From Gemmatimonadota bacterium (lineage in GTDB: Bacteria; JBHIER01; G020348925): 9,324 nt of DNA. Below are positions 1-8,869 of the stretch, one piece after another. The DNA is taken from contig CP070758.1 in the NCBI GenBank assembly GCA_020348925.1, positions 1,914,179 to 1,923,502 of the forward strand. The letters are read 5' to 3'. How positions within the stretch are numbered: the stretch's first letter is position 1; the number at the start of each line of letters is the position of its first letter. The notes beneath the pieces are model-generated. The model was given only the letters and a program-made list of their open reading frames with translations, had not been told where the DNA came from and did no database searches. The position numbers were made by a program, and so were the translations under genes.

Positions 1-886
1 GAATCCCCGAACCCCCGATGCCCCCCCACAAAACCGGATAAAATAAAGCCTCCACCGGCATGAAAAACCCCCAACGCGCCAACCCCAAAAAGAACTTCGG
101 ATAGGCGCTGTTGGATACCTCATTTACCACCCTGGCCCACACATCGTAGGGCACATTCTCACACGGGTAGCGCGGACTCCAGCGAATAGCCCGCGCATGC
201 ACCGGCTGCACCCGACGCCCGTCCGGCCCCACGTAGATCCGCTCCGGATAGGGCAGAAACTCGATCTCCACCTCACCCCACTCGCCATCGCATTTGAACC
301 CCCGCACCCTCATGATCACAGGATCCTCCGGCTCCTGTCCGTCCGGCCAGACCGTCACGTACACACTGTCCCTGTCCGAAGGAGTTCCGAAAGGCTGCAG
401 AACCAGAAGGGTCTCGCTCAATGTAACCTCCCATCCTACAGGGACATCTTCAAGAAACAGGGCGACCGTTAGAGGCATACCGGTATCGTTCCATACCGGA
501 ATCGCAATCGGTTTCAAATTCCACCGCACCGGCTCATGATCCCACGGCTCATCCGGCCAGACCGTCATCCGACACCGACGACTGAAATACCGCACATCCG
601 GATCGTCAAAACAGAAGTTCATATCCCGGTTCCAGGATATCAACAGGTTTCTCGCCCACCAGTTCTTCTCGTCAGAAAAATGATGATACCCGCATTCGCA
701 CACCACGGTATCGGCTCCGTCTCCTGTAACGGAAGCGGAACTCACACAGTAAGGTTCCGCCCCAACAGGAGGCATTGTGAATAGTCCCCACGGAGCGTCA
801 TAAAATTCGACAAATACGGACGCACTGGTCTCACAGGTGTTATGGAAGATGGCCTGAACCGCATAATCATCGCACACGCACGGATA
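1..886 (-). other. Ig-like C-terminal domains with an internal duplication (residues 2624-2918, continuing)
   Basis: One Ig-like domain starts at YPCVCDDYAVQAIFHN (Tyr2624) and contains VFVEFYDAPWGLF, CECGYHH and WWARNLLISWN. A second domain of NEW3/CARDB-like character follows at about residues 2752-2833: IPVWNDTGMPLTVALFLEDV, PVGWEVTLSETLLVLQPFG, then DSVYVTVWPDG. At Tyr2863 a second copy of the first domain begins (YPCENVPYDVWARVVNE ... ARWGFFMPV) and is cut by the window edge. The domain family assignment rests on strand pattern and recalled motifs, and is tentative. Confidence 0.55.
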
Positions 887-3800
887 CGCACCACGGTACG
901 GATGGCTCCACGTAATATCCTGTTCCTGTAACTCGATACACCCGGCATCGTATTCCAGGCACGCCCTCACCATGTACTCATATCCGGCAAAACACTTCCA
1001 CATCCCCTGCTCCGCATTGTAGATCCACGAAGCGCTTGCAACGTGACCGGCATCGGCCAAGATCCTGGGCCGATCCCTCCCCGCCTTCATCGTCCACACC
1101 ACGTAGAAACAGCTCTTGGCCGGAATCTGAAGACACACGCTATCCCCCAAAACCACCCTCTCCCAATCCCAATTCCCCATGAAACCACCCGAGTCAAATG
1201 CACCCAACAACTCGCCCAACGGTCCCTCACCCCTGCCGAGAGGCTCACACACAGGACACGGCCCCTCAGGACCGAGATGAACCGACAGATCCACAGAACC
1301 GGGATCGTACCACTGAAAAGAGATCGACGTCAACCGGGCCTGGCCCAGAGGATTGTAGAAACCCACGGCATAACTGTCCTGATCCGCGTACTGGGGACTG
1401 CTGCCAACGAGAAAATCGTCGGCAGTGCCCATCAAATTATTCTGGAGACACGTGTCCCCCCAGGCCACCGCACAGGGATACAGCCAGGGAACATAATCCA
1501 CATTCGCAGAAGGGGGTAAAATGAGTTCACCCTGGCCCAGAGGATTGTTATCGTGCTGGGGGCCGGTGCAGGAATCCCAGTAATTGTTCTCAGCGTCGAC
1601 GACGCCGTCGTGAGCCACCACCTCAACGGCCACCCTGCACGTATTATTATTGAAATGACATTGGTTGACAGCACATCCGGAAATGGATCCGCCTGAGATG
1701 TGAGGTCCCAGCAGCAGAGCCGGACTGCAATTCGTGAACTCAAATCCTACGATGGTTATATTGTTTGCCTGAACCGTAATCCCCGGTCCACCTCCACCGT
1801 CGATGATGGGCTTTGATCCGGCTTCAAGAGTCAGACCATCCTTCGTCAGCACGATCCCACCTCCGTATAGTCCGTCGTAGACAACCACTGTACCGCCGGT
1901 CTCCACGGCATCGTGGCCGTTCTGGATGGTATCGAAGCCATTCCATCCCTTGAGGATGTCCTCTCCTGAGCGGCCCTTGCCGAGGTGCGTTCCCCACACC
2001 TCATCGGCCCAGTCGTCGTCGACATAGACCATTGCGTACGCAACCTCGACCCCCTGAGAAACAGGAAATCCGCACGAACCTGCCCCCTCATCTCCGGGTA
2101 CATCAAAACCGAGTTTTGTACGGTACCGTTCCACCTCGAGGGCGGCCAGGGCGTAGCCGCCTGCTTGAGTCGTACGCATGCCTGAGATCAGGGCAGACCC
2201 CACAAAGTCAGGGGGAACCTCGGGAAGGTCTTCGAAAACGACATACGTCACCTGCTTCTGTTTCAGCCTCCAATACAGGGAATCCACCGCCAGACCGGCT
2301 TCGTCAAAGAGAAAAAGTACACAGTCCGTGTAACCGGGATTGGGATTGACGTTCTGGAGGGCGATTTCAGAGGTTATACCCGATGTATGCAAGGCTTTCC
2401 AGATCCCGGGAATAGCGATCACACCCACATCGGAAACCCAGTGAGGTGGAAGGGCATTATACGTCACGGCCTCCATGAGATACGGCGGCTGAGTCAGAGA
2501 GCCCTTGAAAAGAGTTACAACGGAAGAGATGTTCGGTGCCGACAGGGGACCGGCGGGAGTGTACGAAGCCTGTGACTCCACGCGGACCGCCCCGACGTTG
2601 AGTCCGGAAAGATCATTGAGGCGCGGCAGGGTGAAATTCTCCGATCCCCGGGGACAGACCCAATCGACCAGGGTCGTAATAATATCCCCTTCATCATCAA
2701 GGAAATAGACCTTCACCTTGGCGTTGGTCACCGGACTCAGGTTCTGAACCGTGATCGTCGTCTCCCAGCCCTGGTCTTCGCGAAACATGAGGGGTGCGTA
2801 GTTGATCGTCGAACCGGCAGTGAAGCCCGCATCAGGGACGTCTGACGGAACGCCGGTGTGCGTCATCAAGACATCTTCGCCCACATGATCGATCACAACG
2901 CCCAGGGGTTGGGACGACCGCAACCAGGCCGAGCCCACAAAGTCCGGCCCCACGCAGTCGGAAGCGTCATAGAGATATGTTTCACCAGGAGCCAGGATTG
3001 AAATCTCGCTGATTGTGGCGCGCAGACAGTCGCCCTGCTCCCGGAACCAGATCTCCACCGAGGCGCACTCAACTCCGGCGTTCTGGATAGAGAGCCAGGA
3101 ATTGAACCCTTGGGGCACATCGGCGTAGACAAGGGGCGCATAATAGGCGTACCCGCCTGAGACAGGATCGGTCACACCCACCATCCCCTCACAAATACCG
3201 GAATAGGAAGAGGTAACAGGAACACCGGGTGTAGCATCGCCCGGTGCCGTTCGTTTCACCGTGGCGGTCAGGGGTTGGCCGTCAGGCTCCGTCGTTTCGT
3301 CCGGTTGAATCAAGGGCTCGTTTTGAAAGGACAGCAGGATGGCCGACCGGGCGAGGTCCGGAGATAGTACGGTCCACCCGGCGTTGGGGGGGAGCCACTG
3401 CTTGTTCCATGTATCCAGCGGACCGTTGTGATCAGGGGGACAGTTGCCGGCATCTCCCCAGTATATTACGGCAACCCATGTCCCTTCCTGGCCTACGTTC
3501 TGGACACGAATCGAGGCCTCCCAACCTGACCAGCCAATTTCACTCACAACCGCGGGGGCGAGGATCCGGGTGCCGATCGCAGGCAAGGGCGAAGGGGAAG
3601 GTGGCGGCTCAGGGGTGCACTCGGGGAGGATCTCAAATTCAAACTCATTGAGCACTGTGAAGCTTTGAGAGCCGCCTATTTCGTCTCCAGGTAAGTCATG
3701 TCCCATTGTTGTACCCATCCGTCCGACTTCCACGGCAGCCAGTCCGAAGCCCCCGTCCTGGGTGGTGTGCGTGGCAGCAATCATGGCTGACCCCTCAAAA

Positions 3801-6800
3801 CCCTCATTGATATATCCCCAGGCGTCGAAATTAATGTACTCCACCTGATTTTCGTTCAATCTTTCGCACACGTAGTCCAGCAGACCGCTTTCGTCATAAA
3901 CGAGTATGGCAAAGTCCGTGTACCCTGGATTCGGATTGATATTCTGGATGGCGACTTCAGACGTCCACTCTCCTACGCCCTTGTCCAGGCCGGGCAGGGC
4001 CAACAGGCCGACCTCCGTATCCTCCAGAGACGGAAAGGCGTTGTACATCGTCGCCTCCCTCGGCTCGCTCCCGCTGTATCTCACGAGACCGACCACGGAG
4101 TGTATACCGGCCACGTCTCCGGAAGGACCGCATGCTGGCCACCAATTCTGCGAGGAGATGCGCGCCGCCCCCACATGGTGCCCGGGGAGCTCTTGTGTGG
4201 CGGACAGAACGAAGCTCTTCGATCCTTCCGGGCAGATCCAGCTCTCCTGTGTGTTGATGATGTTGCCACTGGCATCCATGAAATCCACCCAGACCAGGGC
4301 GTCGATCCCTGCGCTCAGATTTTGAACTGTGATTGTCGTCTCCCAGCCGTGATACTCTCGAAAGAAGAGAGGCGCGTAATTGACCTCCGACCCCGAGGCG
4401 CTCGCCGGCAGCCCGACGTACGTCAAGAGCAGATCGTTGCCCACGTGGTCGACCACAATGCCCAAGGGCTGCGAAGCTCTGAGCCAGGCCGACCCCGCAA
4501 ATGAGGGTCCGACACTGTTCCTGGCATCGAATAGAACTGTTTCCCCAGGCGCTAAAAGTGGGACTTCACGGATCGTAGCCTGCTGACAATCATCCTGCCC
4601 CCTGAACCAGATCTCAACGGAGGTACATTCGTCACCCGAGTTCTGGATATTCAGCCAGGAGGTGAATCCGTTGTCCCCGTCGGCGTACACCAGAGGCGCA
4701 AAGTAACCGTAACCGCCCACATAGGGATCGTACACGCCTTCTACCTCTTCGGAGATCCCGGAATAGGATGAATTGACGGATACCCCGGGTTCGACATCCC
4801 CGGGTCCTGAGCGACGAACAGTGACGGCCAGGGGCGGATCATCGAAAAGACCGAAATCGAAACCGGACCACGTCGAGCCCTCCCGAAAAGCCCTGTCGAA
4901 GCGACGCCATTCGTCATCATCCCCGATCACGTCTGATCCGAGGGATGCACACACTCCGTCAGCAAAAATATCCTCGCCAGTCTCCCCACCACTCAGTGAG
5001 TAGACAATGCCTGAAATCGCTCCACCCAAAATTCCCGAACCCCTAAATCGCCAGGCGGTGCCGGGTTTCAACATCCCACTGCAGGCCACTCTCAGGGGAC
5101 CAACGGCTTGAGGAGGACAGGGACCGGACTCACCCCACAACACCAGGGCCACCTTCGCATAGACCTCCCCTACATTCTGAACTTCAATCCAGGGGTCGAC
5201 CCCCGCATCGTTATCGCCAATAGCGCCCAGGACCGGTAACTGGATGCGGGTCCCCCCTGTGGCCAGTGGTGTCGGTGTATACGGTGGCTGGGGAAAAGGT
5301 TCAGGAATCTCTTCAAAGGCAGTGCCGTCGAATACGGGCAGACCCGGGGATCCGGATACTTCGTCACCAGGGATGTGCCAGCCAAAGGCCGTGCCCCACC
5401 GCTCGAGGGCCATGGTTGCCAGAGCGTAGCCGCCGCTCTGGGTCGTTGAAAGAGCCGAGATAACAGCCATGCCGACAAAACCGGGACTGATGACATCCCA
5501 CGTATTGAGGTCGATGTACTTCACCTGATTGGCCTCTATACTCTCGGATACGGAGTCCAGAAAACCGTTCTGATCGTAAATGAGGACGGCGAGATCGGTG
5601 ATCCCCGGACTGGGGTTGAGGTTCTGGATGGCAATCCCGGAGATCCACCCCTGTGCATCCTTGTGAAGGCCGGGAAAGGCCACCACATCCACATCAGTAA
5701 CCCAATGAGATGGAAGCGCATTGTACGCCACCGCCTCCATCATAACATTCCCATCGTATTTAACAAGACTCACCACAGACTGAACATTCCAGTCCTGAGA
5801 CTCCACCCGAACTGCGCCCACTTCCTGTCCGGGCAGGGTGCCGATGACAGGAAGAGTAAAATCCTCAGCCCCTCCCGGGCAGATCGCACCATCCATGGTA
5901 ACAATGACACTCCCGTCCGCCTCCAGAAAATCGACCTGGATCACTGTGGAGACCGTTGAGCTCAGGTTCTGAACCGTGATGATGGTTTCCCAGCCCCGAT
6001 CCTCCCGAAAAATCAAGGGGGCATAGTTGACCGGCGATCCGGCGGTGAAATCCGACTCCGGAACATCGGCCGGCACACCGGTGTACGTCATGAGCATATC
6101 ATTCCCGATCTGATCGACCACGATTCCCAGTGGTTGTGAGGACCTCAACCGCGTTGAGCCGACGAATCCCGGTCCCACGCAGTACATGGCACCGAACCCA
6201 ACTGTCTCACCCGGTGCCAGAAATGGAATTTCGCAGATCGTCGCCTGCTGACAGTCATCCCGCCTCCGGAACCAGAGTTCCACCGAAGTACACTCGTCCC
6301 CTGAGTTTTGAATATACAACCAGGAGGTGATTCCATTGGCTGCACCGGCATAGACGAGAGACGCATAATAGCTGTAACCGCCAAAGACAGGATCGTAGAC
6401 GCCCTCCACCTCCCCGCAGATCCCTGAATACGAGGAATTAACAGATACCCCAGGGGTATCATCCCCGGGTCCGGTGCGACGAACCGTCACCGCCAGGTCC
6501 GGACTTTGATACAGGCCGAAGTCGAAGCCGAACCACGTCAAATCCTCCCGAAAGGCCCTGTCGAAGCGGCGCCACTCGTCATCATCCCCCATCACATTCT
6601 CGTACAGGGCTTCACAGACGGCATCTGCGAAGATATCTCCTCCAGCTTCCCCGGCGTTCAGGGAGTAGACAATGGCCGATTTCGCTCCAATTGGAATCTG
6701 GGCGTCTTTGAAGTGCCAGGCGGTGCCGGGTTTCAACAGCCCACTGCACTCCACCTTCACAGGTCCATTGGCCTGAGGGGGACAGTCGCCGGACTCACCC

Positions 6801-8755
6801 CACACCACCAGAACCGACTTCGCATAGGCATGACCAACATTCTGAACCTCGATCCATGTACGGGCAATATCGTCCTCTCCAAGATAGTTTAAAATAGGGA
6901 CCTGGATACGGGTACCTCCCGAGGTAGGCGGCACAGGTGTGGGCGGTGGCTGCGGAGAGGGCTCAGGAATCTCTTCAAAGGCAGTGCCGTCGAATACGGG
7001 CAGACCCGGGGATGCGGATACTTCGTCGCCAGGTATGTCCCAGCCAAGCGCCGTGCCCTGCCGCTCGATGGCCAGGGCCGCCAGAGCGTAGCCACCGCTC
7101 TGGGTCGTTGCCGTGGCCGAGATGAGGGCCATACCCACAAAACCGGGATTGATGGCATCCCACGTGTTGAGGTTAATGTACTTCACCATATCGGCCTCTA
7201 TACTCTCGGAACCGTAGCCAAGAAAACCGTTCTGATCGTAAATGAGGACGGCGAGATCGGTGATCCCTGGATTGGAATTGAGGTTCTGGATGGCGATCTC
7301 GGAGATCACCCCATACGTACCCATCGCCTTCGCGACAAGAGGAAAAGCGATCATTCCCACATCAGCGACCATCTGAGATGAAAAAGCATTGTAAGCCAAC
7401 GCCTCCAGCGCTTGCGTCTTGGCGGGATCGGAGTACTTGATCAATTGAACGACGGTTACGACGTTCTGTGGTTGTTGAGAGTCCATTTGGTGACTCTCAA
7501 TACGTGCTGCGCCCACGTCGTGACCGGGAAGATTGTTACTGACGGGTAGGGTGAAAGTCTTTGATCCATTCCGGCAGATCCAATCCTCCATTGTGGTAAT
7601 GATGTTCCCTTCGTCGTCCAGGAAGTCGACCGTTACATAGGTGGGCGATGATGTTGAAGTCAAGTTCTGAACTGTGATGTTTGTTTCCCAGCCATTGTAC
7701 TCTCGAAAGATGAGGGGTGCATAATTGACGAGCGAACCGGCGCCGTCGAAATAAGGTTCGCCGTTGTAAGTCATCAGCAGGTCGTTGCCCACCTGATCCA
7801 CGATGATTCCCAGGGGCTCATTGGCCGTGATGTAAACATTCCCCAGCCAGGGAGCATCAATTTCCGGCGACCTGAAAGGTACATCAGCCTCAGTGATTGG
7901 CCCAATGGAGATGGCCTCGCCCGGCGCCAAAAACTCGATGTGCTGGGCCACCATGAGCTCGCAGTTTCCGTCCTCCTTGAAGTAAAGCCAGATAGAAGTG
8001 CAATCGTCACCCGAGTTCTGGATGGTGATGATGCTGGACAGGCCGTTATAGCCGTGCATGATGCGGGGTGCGAAGTACCCGTAGGGTGGACCGAGACCCT
8101 CCATGTCTTCGGAGATACCCGTGTATGAAGCGTTGACGGATACACCAGGTGTGACATCACCGGGTGCATCACGTTTGACCGTCACAACCACGGGTTGGCC
8201 TTCGTGCGCCGCGAAGTCGAAGCCCGACCAGGTTGAACCCTCCCGAAAAGCGATGTCAAAGCTGCGCCATTCGTCATGGTTCCCGAGGACCGTCTCAAAA
8301 AGAGCTTCGCAGACGGCATCGGCGAAGATGTCCCCCCCGGTCTGCTCCACGTTCAGCGTATAGACGATGCCCGACTTCGCCCAGAATGGAATCTGGGAGC
8401 CTTTGAAGTACCAGGCAGTGCCTGGCCTCAACAGGCCGCTGCACTCCACCTTCCAAGGACCGCTGGCCTGGGGTGGACACAGGCCGGACTCACCCCACAA
8501 TACCAGGACAGCTTTGGTGTAAGTTACACCCACATTCTGCACTTCGACCCAGGCCTCGGCAACATTGTTCTCCCCGAGGTAGTTTAATACGGGCACCTGG
8601 ATGCGCGTACCGCTCGCGTCCGGAGGCATAGAGACAGGCATCCCGTTCCTCTCGCCGGTTCCCATATCGCCAGCCACACGAGTTGTCAGCATAAGAAGCA
8701 GACCCATTCCCAGAAAAAAAGCGATACGTAATAACGGCTCAGATTGTTTCTCCAT
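1..8755 (-). CDS. Giant secreted multi-repeat surface protein, 3'-truncated by window edge
   Basis: The ATG at 8755 opens a frame of 2,918 codons with no stop before position 1, so the C-terminus lies outside the window. This start is chosen because it follows an AAAGGGG ribosome-binding site by 7 nt and begins a good signal peptide. Order of parts by residue: signal peptide 1-29; superunits at 49, 614, 1168 and 1728, each of four (V/I/L)QN modules; beta-helix-like segment about 2243-2427; beta-sandwich-like segment about 2428-2622; Ig-like domains from about 2624. Conserved Cys pairs recur in the repeats, which fits folding outside the cytoplasm. I see no catalytic motif, internal membrane segment or sorting signal, but the C-terminus is missing. 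The modules resemble unnamed repeats in Chloroflexota-type envelope proteins (recalled, not searched). A structural stalk or adhesin role is inferred. Existence of the gene is near certain; its function is unknown. Confidence 0.95.
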   Translation of the reverse strand, partial: MEKQSEPLLRIAFFLGMGLLLMLTTRVAGDMGTGERNGMPVSMPPDASGTRIQVPVLNYLGENNVAEAWVEVQNVGVTYTKAVLVLWGESGLCPPQASGPWKVECSGLLRPGTAWYFKGSQIPFWAKSGIVYTLNVEQTGGDIFADAVCEALFETVLGNHDEWRSFDIAFREGSTWSGFDFAAHEGQPVVVTVKRDAPGDVTPGVSVNASYTGISEDMEGLGPPYGYFAPRIMHGYNGLSSIITIQNSGDDCTSIWLYFKEDGNCELMVAQHIEFLAPGEAISIGPITEADVPFRSPEIDAPWLGNVYITANEPLGIIVDQVGNDLLMTYNGEPYFDGAGSLVNYAPLIFREYNGWETNITVQNLTSTSSPTYVTVDFLDDEGNIITTMEDWICRNGSKTFTLPVSNNLPGHDVGAARIESHQMDSQQPQNVVTVVQLIKYSDPAKTQALEALAYNAFSSQMVADVGMIAFPLVAKAMGTYGVISEIAIQNLNSNPGITDLAVLIYDQNGFLGYGSESIEADMVKYINLNTWDAINPGFVGMALISATATTQSGGYALAALAIERQGTALGWDIPGDEVSASPGLPVFDGTAFEEIPEPSPQPPPTPVPPTSGGTRIQVPILNYLGEDDIARTWIEVQNVGHAYAKSVLVVWGESGDCPPQANGPVKVECSGLLKPGTAWHFKDAQIPIGAKSAIVYSLNAGEAGGDIFADAVCEALYENVMGDDDEWRRFDRAFREDLTWFGFDFGLYQSPDLAVTVRRTGPGDDTPGVSVNSSYSGICGEVEGVYDPVFGGYSYYASLVYAGAANGITSWLYIQNSGDECTSVELWFRRRDDCQQATICEIPFLAPGETVGFGAMYCVGPGFVGSTRLRSSQPLGIVVDQIGNDMLMTYTGVPADVPESDFTAGSPVNYAPLIFREDRGWETIITVQNLSSTVSTVIQVDFLEADGSVIVTMDGAICPGGAEDFTLPVIGTLPGQEVGAVRVESQDWNVQSVVSLVKYDGNVMMEAVAYNALPSHWVTDVDVVAFPGLHKDAQGWISGIAIQNLNPSPGITDLAVLIYDQNGFLDSVSESIEANQVKYIDLNTWDVISPGFVGMAVISALSTTQSGGYALATMALERWGTAFGWHIPGDEVSGSPGLPVFDGTAFEEIPEPFPQPPYTPTPLATGGTRIQLPVLGAIGDNDAGVDPWIEVQNVGEVYAKVALVLWGESGPCPPQAVGPLRVACSGMLKPGTAWRFRGSGILGGAISGIVYSLSGGETGEDIFADGVCASLGSDVIGDDDEWRRFDRAFREGSTWSGFDFGLFDDPPLAVTVRRSGPGDVEPGVSVNSSYSGISEEVEGVYDPYVGGYGYFAPLVYADGDNGFTSWLNIQNSGDECTSVEIWFRGQDDCQQATIREVPLLAPGETVLFDARNSVGPSFAGSAWLRASQPLGIVVDHVGNDLLLTYVGLPASASGSEVNYAPLFFREYHGWETTITVQNLSAGIDALVWVDFMDASGNIINTQESWICPEGSKSFVLSATQELPGHHVGAARISSQNWWPACGPSGDVAGIHSVVGLVRYSGSEPREATMYNAFPSLEDTEVGLLALPGLDKGVGEWTSEVAIQNINPNPGYTDFAILVYDESGLLDYVCERLNENQVEYINFDAWGYINEGFEGSAMIAATHTTQDGGFGLAAVEVGRMGTTMGHDLPGDEIGGSQSFTVLNEFEFEILPECTPEPPPSPSPLPAIGTRILAPAVVSEIGWSGWEASIRVQNVGQEGTWVAVIYWGDAGNCPPDHNGPLDTWNKQWLPPNAGWTVLSPDLARSAILLSFQNEPLIQPDETTEPDGQPLTATVKRTAPGDATPGVPVTSSYSGICEGMVGVTDPVSGGYAYYAPLVYADVPQGFNSWLSIQNAGVECASVEIWFREQGDCLRATISEISILAPGETYLYDASDCVGPDFVGSAWLRSSQPLGVVIDHVGEDVLMTHTGVPSDVPDAGFTAGSTINYAPLMFREDQGWETTITVQNLSPVTNAKVKVYFLDDEGDIITTLVDWVCPRGSENFTLPRLNDLSGLNVGAVRVESQASYTPAGPLSAPNISSVVTLFKGSLTQPPYLMEAVTYNALPPHWVSDVGVIAIPGIWKALHTSGITSEIALQNVNPNPGYTDCVLFLFDEAGLAVDSLYWRLKQKQVTYVVFEDLPEVPPDFVGSALISGMRTTQAGGYALAALEVERYRTKLGFDVPGDEGAGSCGFPVSQGVEVAYAMVYVDDDWADEVWGTHLGKGRSGEDILKGWNGFDTIQNGHDAVETGGTVVVYDGLYGGGIVLTKDGLTLEAGSKPIIDGGGGPGITVQANNITIVGFEFTNCSPALLLGPHISGGSISGCAVNQCHFNNNTCRVAVEVVAHDGVVDAENNYWDSCTGPQHDNNPLGQGELILPPSANVDYVPWLYPCAVAWGDTCLQNNLMGTADDFLVGSSPQYADQDSYAVGFYNPLGQARLTSISFQWYDPGSVDLSVHLGPEGPCPVCEPLGRGEGPLGELLGAFDSGGFMGNWDWERVVLGDSVCLQIPAKSCFYVVWTMKAGRDRPRILADAGHVASASWIYNAEQGMWKCFAGYEYMVRACLEYDAGCIELQEQDITWSHPYRGAYPCVCDDYAVQAIFHNTCETSASVFVEFYDAPWGLFTMPPVGAEPYCVSSASVTGDGADTVVCECGYHHFSDEKNWWARNLLISWNRDMNFCFDDPDVRYFSRRCRMTVWPDEPWDHEPVRWNLKPIAIPVWNDTGMPLTVALFLEDVPVGWEVTLSETLLVLQPFGTPSDRDSVYVTVWPDGQEPEDPVIMRVRGFKCDGEWGEVEIEFLPYPERIYVGPDGRRVQPVHARAIRWSPRYPCENVPYDVWARVVNEVSNSAYPKFFLGLARWGFFMPVEALFYPVLWGGIGGSGI
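890..1474 (-). other. Cys-rich beta-sandwich-like region (residues about 2428-2622)
   Basis: This region follows the beta-helix directly. It contains DSYAVGFYNPLG, RLTSISFQWYDPGSVDLSVHLG, a CPVC pair at about residues 2500-2503, ERVVLGDSVCLQIPAKSCFYVVWTM and a closing WKCFAGYEYMVRACLEYD. The order (predicted strand-rich start, W-x-x-V-L, a 'FYVVW' strand, then W...Y.VRA) resembles beta-sandwich modules found beside Ig-like domains in large bacterial extracellular proteins. I cannot give it a family name. Frequent Cys suggests disulfides in an exported protein. Confidence 0.5.
1475..2029 (-). other. Right-handed beta-helix-like segment (residues about 2243-2427)
   Basis: It begins VYVDDDWADEVWGTHLG, followed by GWNGFDTIQNGHDAV and GGTVVVYDGLYGG. 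This is the entry pattern of many secreted parallel beta-helix proteins (a 'xDTIQ..xDAV..GGTV.V..G.Y' cap). Short beta turns follow: KPIIDGGGGPGITVQANNITIVGFEFTNC. The segment closes with AENNYWDSCTGPQHDNNPLG and NVDYVPWLYP, the usual end signature (NNYW...TGP...NP.G.G...V.Y.PWL). About 185 residues is short for a full pectate-lyase-like helix, and no catalytic residues of such enzymes are apparent. A structural or ligand-binding role is inferred. Confidence 0.8.
2081..3574 (-). repeat. Superunit 4 (residues 1728 to about 2225), divergent and shorter
   Basis: This copy starts GTRILAPAVVSEIGW. QN motifs fall at residues 1752, 1891, 2004 and 2134. Module 1 is the odd one: WGDAGNCPPDHNGP is kept, but the second Cys and the long insert (GEDIFADAVC ... 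DDEWRRFDRAFRE) seen in copies 1-3 are missing. The distance from QN1 to QN2 is therefore 139 residues rather than 173-178. From PGDATPGVPVTSSYSGIC onward it rejoins the family, with Cys1855 and Cys1934 paired as in superunit 2. Module 3 begins INYAPLMFREDQGWE. Module 4 ends GGYALAALEVER...PGDE at about residue 2220, and a beta-helix follows in place of a Pro-rich linker. Confidence 0.88.
3575..5254 (-). repeat. Superunit 3 (residues 1168-1727), four QN modules plus Pro-rich linker
   Basis: This copy starts GTRIQLPVLGAIG and ends in a linker (residues about 1709-1727, PECTPEPPPSPSPLPAI). QN motifs fall at residues 1193, 1371, 1478 and 1604. Module 1 retains WGESG-PC-PPQ and the DIFADGVC and DDEWRRFDRAFREGSTW segments. 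In module 2 the positions that are Cys in superunits 2 and 4 are both Ser here (Ser1335 in SYSGIS and Ser1414 in NSVGP), at the same 79-residue spacing. Module 3 begins VNYAPLFFREYHGWE and contains SWIC. Module 4 is more diverged (EVAIQNINPNPGYTDFAIL), and its DNA no longer closely matches superunits 1 and 2. Confidence 0.92.
5255..6916 (-). repeat. Superunit 2 (residues 614-1167), four QN modules plus Pro-rich linker
   Basis: This copy starts GTRIQVPILNYLG and ends in a linker rich in Pro (residues about 1150-1167, PEPFPQPPYTPTPL). QN motifs fall at residues 638, 816, 929 and 1044. Module 1 keeps the long insert with GEAGGDIFADAVCEAL and DDDEWRRFDRAFRE. Module 2 has the conserved pair Cys822/Cys835 plus a second pair, Cys780 (SYSGIC) and Cys859 (CVGP), 79 residues apart. 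Module 3 begins VNYAPLIFREDRGWE. Module 4 contains GIAIQNLNPSPGITDLAVL. The 1,662-base length is an exact multiple of three, as needed for in-frame duplication or contraction. Confidence 0.92.
6917..8611 (-). repeat. Superunit 1 (residues 49-613), four QN modules plus Pro-rich linker
   Basis: This copy starts at GTRIQVPVLNYLG and ends in a Pro-rich linker (residues about 596-613, PEPSPQPPPTPVPP). QN motifs fall at residues 73, 246, 363 and 490. Module 1 has Cys93, Cys105 and Cys149 (WGESG-C-PPQ, VECSG, DAVCEAL). Module 2 has the Cys252/Cys265 pair and ends in GIIVDQVGND. Module 3 starts VNYAPLIFREYNGWE and contains DWIC. Module 4 contains EIAIQN and ends SGGYALAALAIER...PGDE. It differs from the other copies after module 2's strand pair: the segment around residues 285-300 (ITEADVPFRSPEIDAPWLG) replaces the CVGP/SVGP segment. 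Its module 4 and linker are almost identical in DNA to those of superunit 2. Confidence 0.92.
8669..8755 (-). other. Signal peptide (residues 1-29)
   Basis: The N-terminus has a short polar segment with Lys3 and Arg10, then a hydrophobic core at about residues 11-23 (IAFFLGMGLLLML), then a polar stretch ending in Val27-Ala28-Gly29 before Asp30. This matches a Sec-type signal peptide cleaved after Gly29. No lipobox Cys follows, so a lipoprotein is unlikely. After cleavage there is a flexible, Gly/Met/Pro-containing segment up to residue 48, where the first repeat begins. Confidence 0.8.
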
Positions 8756-8762
8756 TTAGCAA

Positions 8763-8769
8763 CCCCTTT
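8763..8769 (-). promoter_or_regulatory. Ribosome-binding site of the giant gene
   Basis: On the minus strand AAAGGGG is followed by TTGCTAA and then the ATG at 8755. The 7-nt spacing is near ideal, and the site supports this ATG rather than the in-frame Met codons at residues 17 and 22, which lie inside the signal peptide. Confidence 0.7.
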
Positions 8770-8869
8770 CTTCAGAACACTTCGAGTCCTTCACTGAATA
8801 GTACGTTGCTCATTTTCTATGTTTGAAATCGTTATTGGAAGCAATCGTGATTCTATAAATGCTACGTAA

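Follow-up and report, generated by a model that had tools for sequence, protein, structure and literature searches.

The DNA analysed here, called the window below, is a 9,324-nt stretch (G000:C1:1914179-1923502) of a bacterial genome consisting of a single contig of 5.04 Mb. Most of it is occupied by one minus-strand ORF that starts with an ATG at position 8755, and its features are the following, with M1 to M4 standing for modules 1 to 4 of each superunit.

8763..8772, minus strand: ribosome-binding-like sequence AAGAAAGGGG, 7 nt upstream of the ATG, recognised from sequence
2..8755, minus strand: the ORF, 2918 aa inside the window and 3029 aa in the genome, extending beyond the left edge
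8669..8755, minus strand: probable signal peptide, residues 1-29 (MEKQSEPLLRIAFFLGMGLLLMLTTRVAG), hydrophobic, read from the sequence by eye
6917..8611, minus strand: superunit 1, residues 49-613, from self-alignment (M1 8084-8611, M2 7730-8083, M3 7370-7729, M4 7019-7369, Pro-rich linker 6917-7018)
5255..6916, minus strand: superunit 2, residues 614-1167, from self-alignment and AlphaFold2 model (M1 6377-6916, M2 6032-6376, M3 5702-6031, M4 5357-5701, Pro-rich linker 5255-5356)
3575..5254, minus strand: superunit 3, residues 1168-1727, from self-alignment (M1 4712-5254, M2 4385-4711, M3 4022-4384, M4 3677-4021, Pro-rich linker 3575-3676)
2051..3574, minus strand: superunit 4, residues 1728-2235, from self-alignment (M1 3152-3574, helical insert lost; M2 2807-3151, M3 2438-2806, M4 2084-2437; without Pro-rich linker)
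2..2050, minus strand: C-terminal part after the repeats, without a Pfam family in Pfam/NCBIfam scans
1727..1924, minus strand: short beta-helix-like stretch 3′ of the repeats, a weak NosD-type match scoring 29.9 bits, far under the cut-off of 300 (E 2e-7)

Judging from the probable signal peptide, the window protein is probably extracellular. Unlike its neighbours, it showed no type IX-like sorting domain when its C-terminal part was scanned with Pfam and NCBIfam; two large proteins of secreted type encoded nearby in the host (L002:3672-7670 and L004:4349-7492) have FlgD-Ig/CHU_C/Por_Secre_tail-like C-terminal domains, which suggests type IX-like secretion in the host phylum. Besides the beta-helix-like stretch, region 2-2050 contains further domains for which Pfam has no matching family, and 34 residues near the end of the protein are masked in the genome text (L003). 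A search of the host genome detected no second copy of the repeat outside the window protein.

The preliminary description had read the repeats as a nested 4 x 4 array in which each of sixteen beta modules is marked by a (V/I/L)QN core. All sixteen motifs lie exactly at the residues it gave, with the Q at 73, 246, 363, 490, 638, 816, 929 and 1044, and at 1193, 1371, 1478, 1604, 1752, 1891, 2004 and 2134. In 2000 composition shuffles the count averaged 0.73 and never exceeded 5, against 16 in residues 49-2225 of the actual protein; downstream of the repeats, a stretch of 693 residues has two more. The spacing recurs as described (173/117/127/148, 178/113/115/149, 178/107/126/148 and 139/113/130), that is, in every copy except for the first gap of the last one, which is short because the ~40-residue helical insert of module 1 has been deleted there. 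Each superunit is about 510-565 residues long, the four starting at residues 49, 614, 1168 and 1728; in full-length alignment superunits 2, 3 and 4 are 62, 52 and 44% identical to superunit 1, respectively. Repeats at the DNA level agree with this (60-80% identity, spacing 1560-1695 nt). The modules proper comprise about 105-125 residues, module 1 being longer than the others because of its insert. The motif itself needs to be redefined, though: while all 16 sites are real, comparison of 43 superunits from the window and related proteins indicated that the constant letter is N and not QN, the Asn being kept in 42-43 of the 43 at every module and the Q of module 4 in just 16 of 42.

The modules were also proposed to descend from one ancestral module that was quadrupled before the whole set was duplicated, and this was borne out by profiles, models and a tree. 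In module-against-module comparisons with hhalign (43 aligned superunits), E-values, each from a single comparison, were 1e-10 for M2-M3, 7e-8 for M3-M4, 2.4e-6 for M2-M4 and 9e-4 for M1-M2, and reversed-profile controls gave 0.04-0.6. By these profiles, modules 2, 3 and 4 are clearly homologous to each other, and M1 is joined to the rest via Chloroflexota module profiles (E 3.6e-5). The profiles from distant Chloroflexota, which have no window sequence inside and whose source proteins were found with M2-M4 profiles, match 15 of the 16 window modules, M1 of superunit 1 alone being missed. Their best E-values ranged from 4e-17 to 1e-7 for M2, M3 and M4 in every superunit, and were 0.008, 0.002 and 1e-8 for M1 of superunits 2, 3 and 4, respectively. 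Since M1 played no part in finding those Chloroflexota proteins, its detection is a fair test. In the superunit tree the four window copies form one clade (98/98) nested among Chloroflexota superunits. This means that the tetrad of modules predates its tandem amplification, and that a single tetrad was amplified in the host lineage. Superunit 4 branches first, in a tree that is midpoint-rooted and in which that superunit is a long branch.

Structure prediction of one superunit (AlphaFold2, superunit 2; the models rest on seven sequences) gave four beta modules with pLDDT 78 and pTM 0.83, each modelled as a beta-sandwich, so that the modules did not turn out to have unrelated folds. The pTM suggests that the four modules may be held in a fixed arrangement. 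When this model was compared with solved structures (VIA-align), the top match of M2 was TM1070 (1nc7; Z 13.5, rmsd 2.5, 106 residues) and that of M4 was ASRT (2iia, 2ii9 and 2ii8, Z 10.0-10.2; for 2iia, Z 10.2, rmsd 1.9, 85 residues), in both cases well above the remaining structures. M3 was closest to a carbohydrate-binding module from Ruminococcus (5aos; Z 8.1, rmsd 2.6, 93 residues), with no ASRT entry for M3 in a comparison where any one chain is listed solely at its best place, so that this absence carries little weight. Modelled alone, M1 also had TM1070 (1nc7) on top (Z 7.5, rmsd 4.2, 105 residues, Foldseek probability 1.00) and scored Z 5.5-5.7 against ASRT, its Z values sitting in a range that calls for caution. 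Sequence searches of solved structures with superunit or module profiles returned nothing related. A search of a viral fold library returned FirrV-1-C4 of Feldmannia irregularis virus a (Q6XLX4, 525 residues), which aligned over all four modules of the model (TM 0.46-0.48, rmsd 10.4, 11% identity; Foldseek E 8.7e-13) and may have a similar four-sandwich layout; no relative was found among the viral contigs, phages and plasmids searched.

ASRT and TM1070 are the proteins from which the ASRAH superfamily was defined (De Souza, Iyer, Aravind 2009; PMC2739507). Its hallmark is a nearly absolutely conserved Asn that ends strand 2, a Trp opening strand 1 is called 'well-conserved' rather than invariant, and the His/Cys pocket signature differs among families (PMC2739507). 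Secreted forms are always dyads or tetrads, and tetrads were found on Chloroflexi amidases (PMC2739507). In the superunit 2 model the Asn of QN is the end of strand 2 in every module (strands 19-26, 197-204, 309-317 and 424-432), so the window modules possess the hallmark residue, and with four modules per superunit they have the organisation of the secreted forms. The ASRT/TM1070-type sandwich is recognised by structure in M1, M2 and M4, and in M3 by sequence homology to M2 (E 1e-10). Other features are missing: position -25 relative to the Asn, where ASRT carries its Trp, holds another residue in all 16 modules, many of which have a Trp at -8 or -5 instead, and residues other than those of the SHEshChhN pocket signature occupy its His and Cys positions. 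The strand-1 Trp is likewise missing from Chloroflexota tetrad modules, whose profile reaches PF07100.

At the sequence level, the window protein has no PF07100 match, and in direct profile comparison its modules are not significantly similar to ASRT (best E 0.017); the kinship therefore runs solely through intermediates. That is, window modules match Chloroflexota modules mostly at 1e-5 to 1e-18, and Chloroflexota tetrad module profiles in turn reach PF07100 members (E 2.6e-5). These weak direct scores would also be expected if the modules were ordinary repeats of the Ig-like or CARDB type whose QN motifs arose by convergence, with no special link to ASRT, a reading with which a CARDB match in one Chloroflexota tetrad protein and a weak NCBIfam FxLYD match in L016 are compatible. 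We nevertheless consider it highly improbable, given that TM1070 or ASRT is the top structural match for three of the four modules, that one Chloroflexota tetrad protein (L114, a subtilase with four modules) exceeds the Pfam ASRT cut-off (29.1 against 25 bits), and that the strand-2-end Asn is kept in every module. Assignment of the repeats to the ASRAH superfamily, as distant members arranged in tetrads, is made with high confidence; because the strand-1 Trp and the His/Cys signature are missing, they are filed as distant members and not as ASRT proper.

The statement that no named family exists for the superunit accordingly holds in part. Neither Pfam nor NCBIfam has a model that covers the ~550-residue superunit, and no family describing the 555-residue unit was met with; the module, on the other hand, belongs to the ASRT/ASRAH superfamily, and tetrads were described in 2009 (PMC2739507). 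The module is also near the Pfam family DUF5719 (PF18986), which matches superunit 2 module 3 at E 1.6e-4 and 21.3 bits, under the gathering score of 26.2 bits. Weak in the window, the match exceeds the cut-off in tetrad proteins of Chloroflexota, and the DUF5719 model, for which no function is given, has 319 positions and so corresponds to about three modules and not to the superunit. Compared with ASRT/TM1070 (PF07100; PDB 2ii7-2iia, 1nc7), the window modules have the same fold (Z up to 13.5) and likewise keep the Asn of strand 2, but ASRT and TM1070 are solo intracellular proteins of ~120 residues that form homotetramers and carry a His/Cys pocket signature, which the window modules do not have. 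The secreted ASRAH tetrads of Chloroflexi (PMC2739507) are closer: shared with them are (probable) secretion, four ASRT-like beta-sandwich modules per unit, the strand-2 Asn and the phylum of the nearest relatives. The window unit differs in its length (~550 and not ~420 residues), in the helical insert of module 1 and in conserved cysteines, and the window array differs in that it has no amidase link and consists of four units in series. It is this serial arrangement of four covalently linked ASRAH tetrads that is new here, the tetrads themselves having been known since 2009 (PMC2739507).

Solo ASRAH proteins are tetramers, similar assemblies were thought possible for dyads and tetrads, and sugar binding by the superfamily is a prediction (PMC2739507). 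On this basis we propose that the four diverged modules in one chain would be the counterpart of one TM1070/ASRT homotetramer. This tetrad was then duplicated to four copies, with Pro-rich linkers after the first three. The array would lie outside the cell and engage glycans, or surface polymers related to them, through several sites simultaneously, the tetrad being the binding unit and its repetition conferring avidity and reach. Both the pseudo-tetrameric packing and the sugar binding are read across from the superfamily to the window array. The predicted role as a whole, a secreted array of four linked ASRAH tetrads serving as a multivalent surface or glycan binder, has in our estimation about an even chance of being correct.

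The distribution of relatives bears on this proposal. With the superunit profile (E < 1e-30), matches were found in all seven genomes examined from the Chloroflexota order of Ardenticatenales SJ541, at 3-22 per genome, some of them partial. Across 301 evenly drawn Chloroflexota genomes, full-length matches occurred in Ardenticatenales SJ541 only and partial ones in 17 others, and many of these partial matches turned out to be four-module proteins. A set of 386 genomes sampled from the bacteria as a whole yielded matches in just two, the host and a genome whose matching 481-aa protein has exactly four modules. Exactly four modules were likewise counted in 18 distinct Chloroflexota proteins in a first module scan, and tetrads are the usual form in which the module occurs in secreted proteins of Chloroflexota, the modules of the divergent ones being about 105 residues apart. 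ASRAH-type tetrads are fused to GH18 (L113) and to subtilase (L114, L058), beyond the amidases reported in 2009. C-terminal tetrads also occur on ORFs of 4700-5400 aa (G060:C209:3685-5436, L083, L086, L095, L098), and one ORF of 11,555 aa has a tetrad as well.

Single superunits of the Ardenticatenales type (L015, L016 and others) are about 40% identical to the window superunit over its full length. Usually they are present in one copy near the C-terminus, whereas the window has four N-terminal copies. The tail after the order's tetrads is at most 65 residues long in 25 of 39 proteins, 170-250 residues in 13 and longer in one, and the 170-250-residue tails hold one extra domain, P-domain-like in several. 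The parts preceding the tetrads range from <50 to >4400 residues; DUF11 repeats, LTD and DUF7948 are among their domains. A CPG(V/Q/L/F)-P type motif directly follows the tetrad in 34 of the 39 order proteins (L016, L060, L061, L075, L094 and others). Several end exactly at CPGQP or CPGVP, and a Cys is also present in 4 of the 5 proteins without the motif; in the window protein no CPG motif follows the tetrads. This near-terminal position, behind such variable N-terminal parts and just before CPG, would suit a surface-retention domain anchoring secreted proteins to the envelope, in the manner of S-layer-homology or cell-wall-binding domains. For the window protein we regard such a role as unlikely, as its tetrads are N-terminal, fourfold, followed by ~700 residues and free of CPG, and as the host's neighbouring genes have type IX-like C-terminal domains instead.

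Somewhat less unlikely, though still improbable, is a structural stalk, in which the sandwiches would give only length and stiffness, like the Ig-like repeats of large adhesins, and any binding would reside in the ~700 residues C-terminal to the repeats. The window modules do not conserve the residues of the ASRT pocket, the superunits are joined by Pro-rich linkers, and tandem tetrads are found elsewhere too (G361 C283, C31 and C48), all of which could be expected of a stalk. Most tetrads of the order, however, are single per protein and C-terminal, a position ill-suited to a spacer, and several Chloroflexota tetrads are by themselves an entire protein of secreted type (460-490 aa), which leaves nothing for a stalk to carry.

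As to how the tetrad came to the host, transfer from a Chloroflexota relative is plausible, though the host is the sole genome of its phylum among those compared, the tree is midpoint-rooted and superunit 4 is a long branch in it. The GC content is 57% in the window tetrads, 49-53% in neighbouring genes and 60-70% in the Chloroflexota-order loci, and DNA composition is not decisive with regard to horizontal transfer. A bolder and tentative scenario, which we think possible but doubtful, is that the tetrad with its CPG tail constitutes an unrecognised C-terminal surface-retention module used by one Chloroflexota order on many unrelated secreted proteins, which would then have been acquired by a bacterium of a barely sampled phylum and expanded to 16 modules.

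These results show that the ASRAH tetrad is widely used by Chloroflexota as a building block of their secreted proteins, far beyond the original amidases, and that amplification can take it to 16 modules. They also bring to light a ~550-residue domain that has no Pfam or NCBIfam model of its own and yet numbers up to about 20 per genome in one order. Single-chain tetrads are now on offer for checking the sugar-binding prediction made for the superfamily (PMC2739507).
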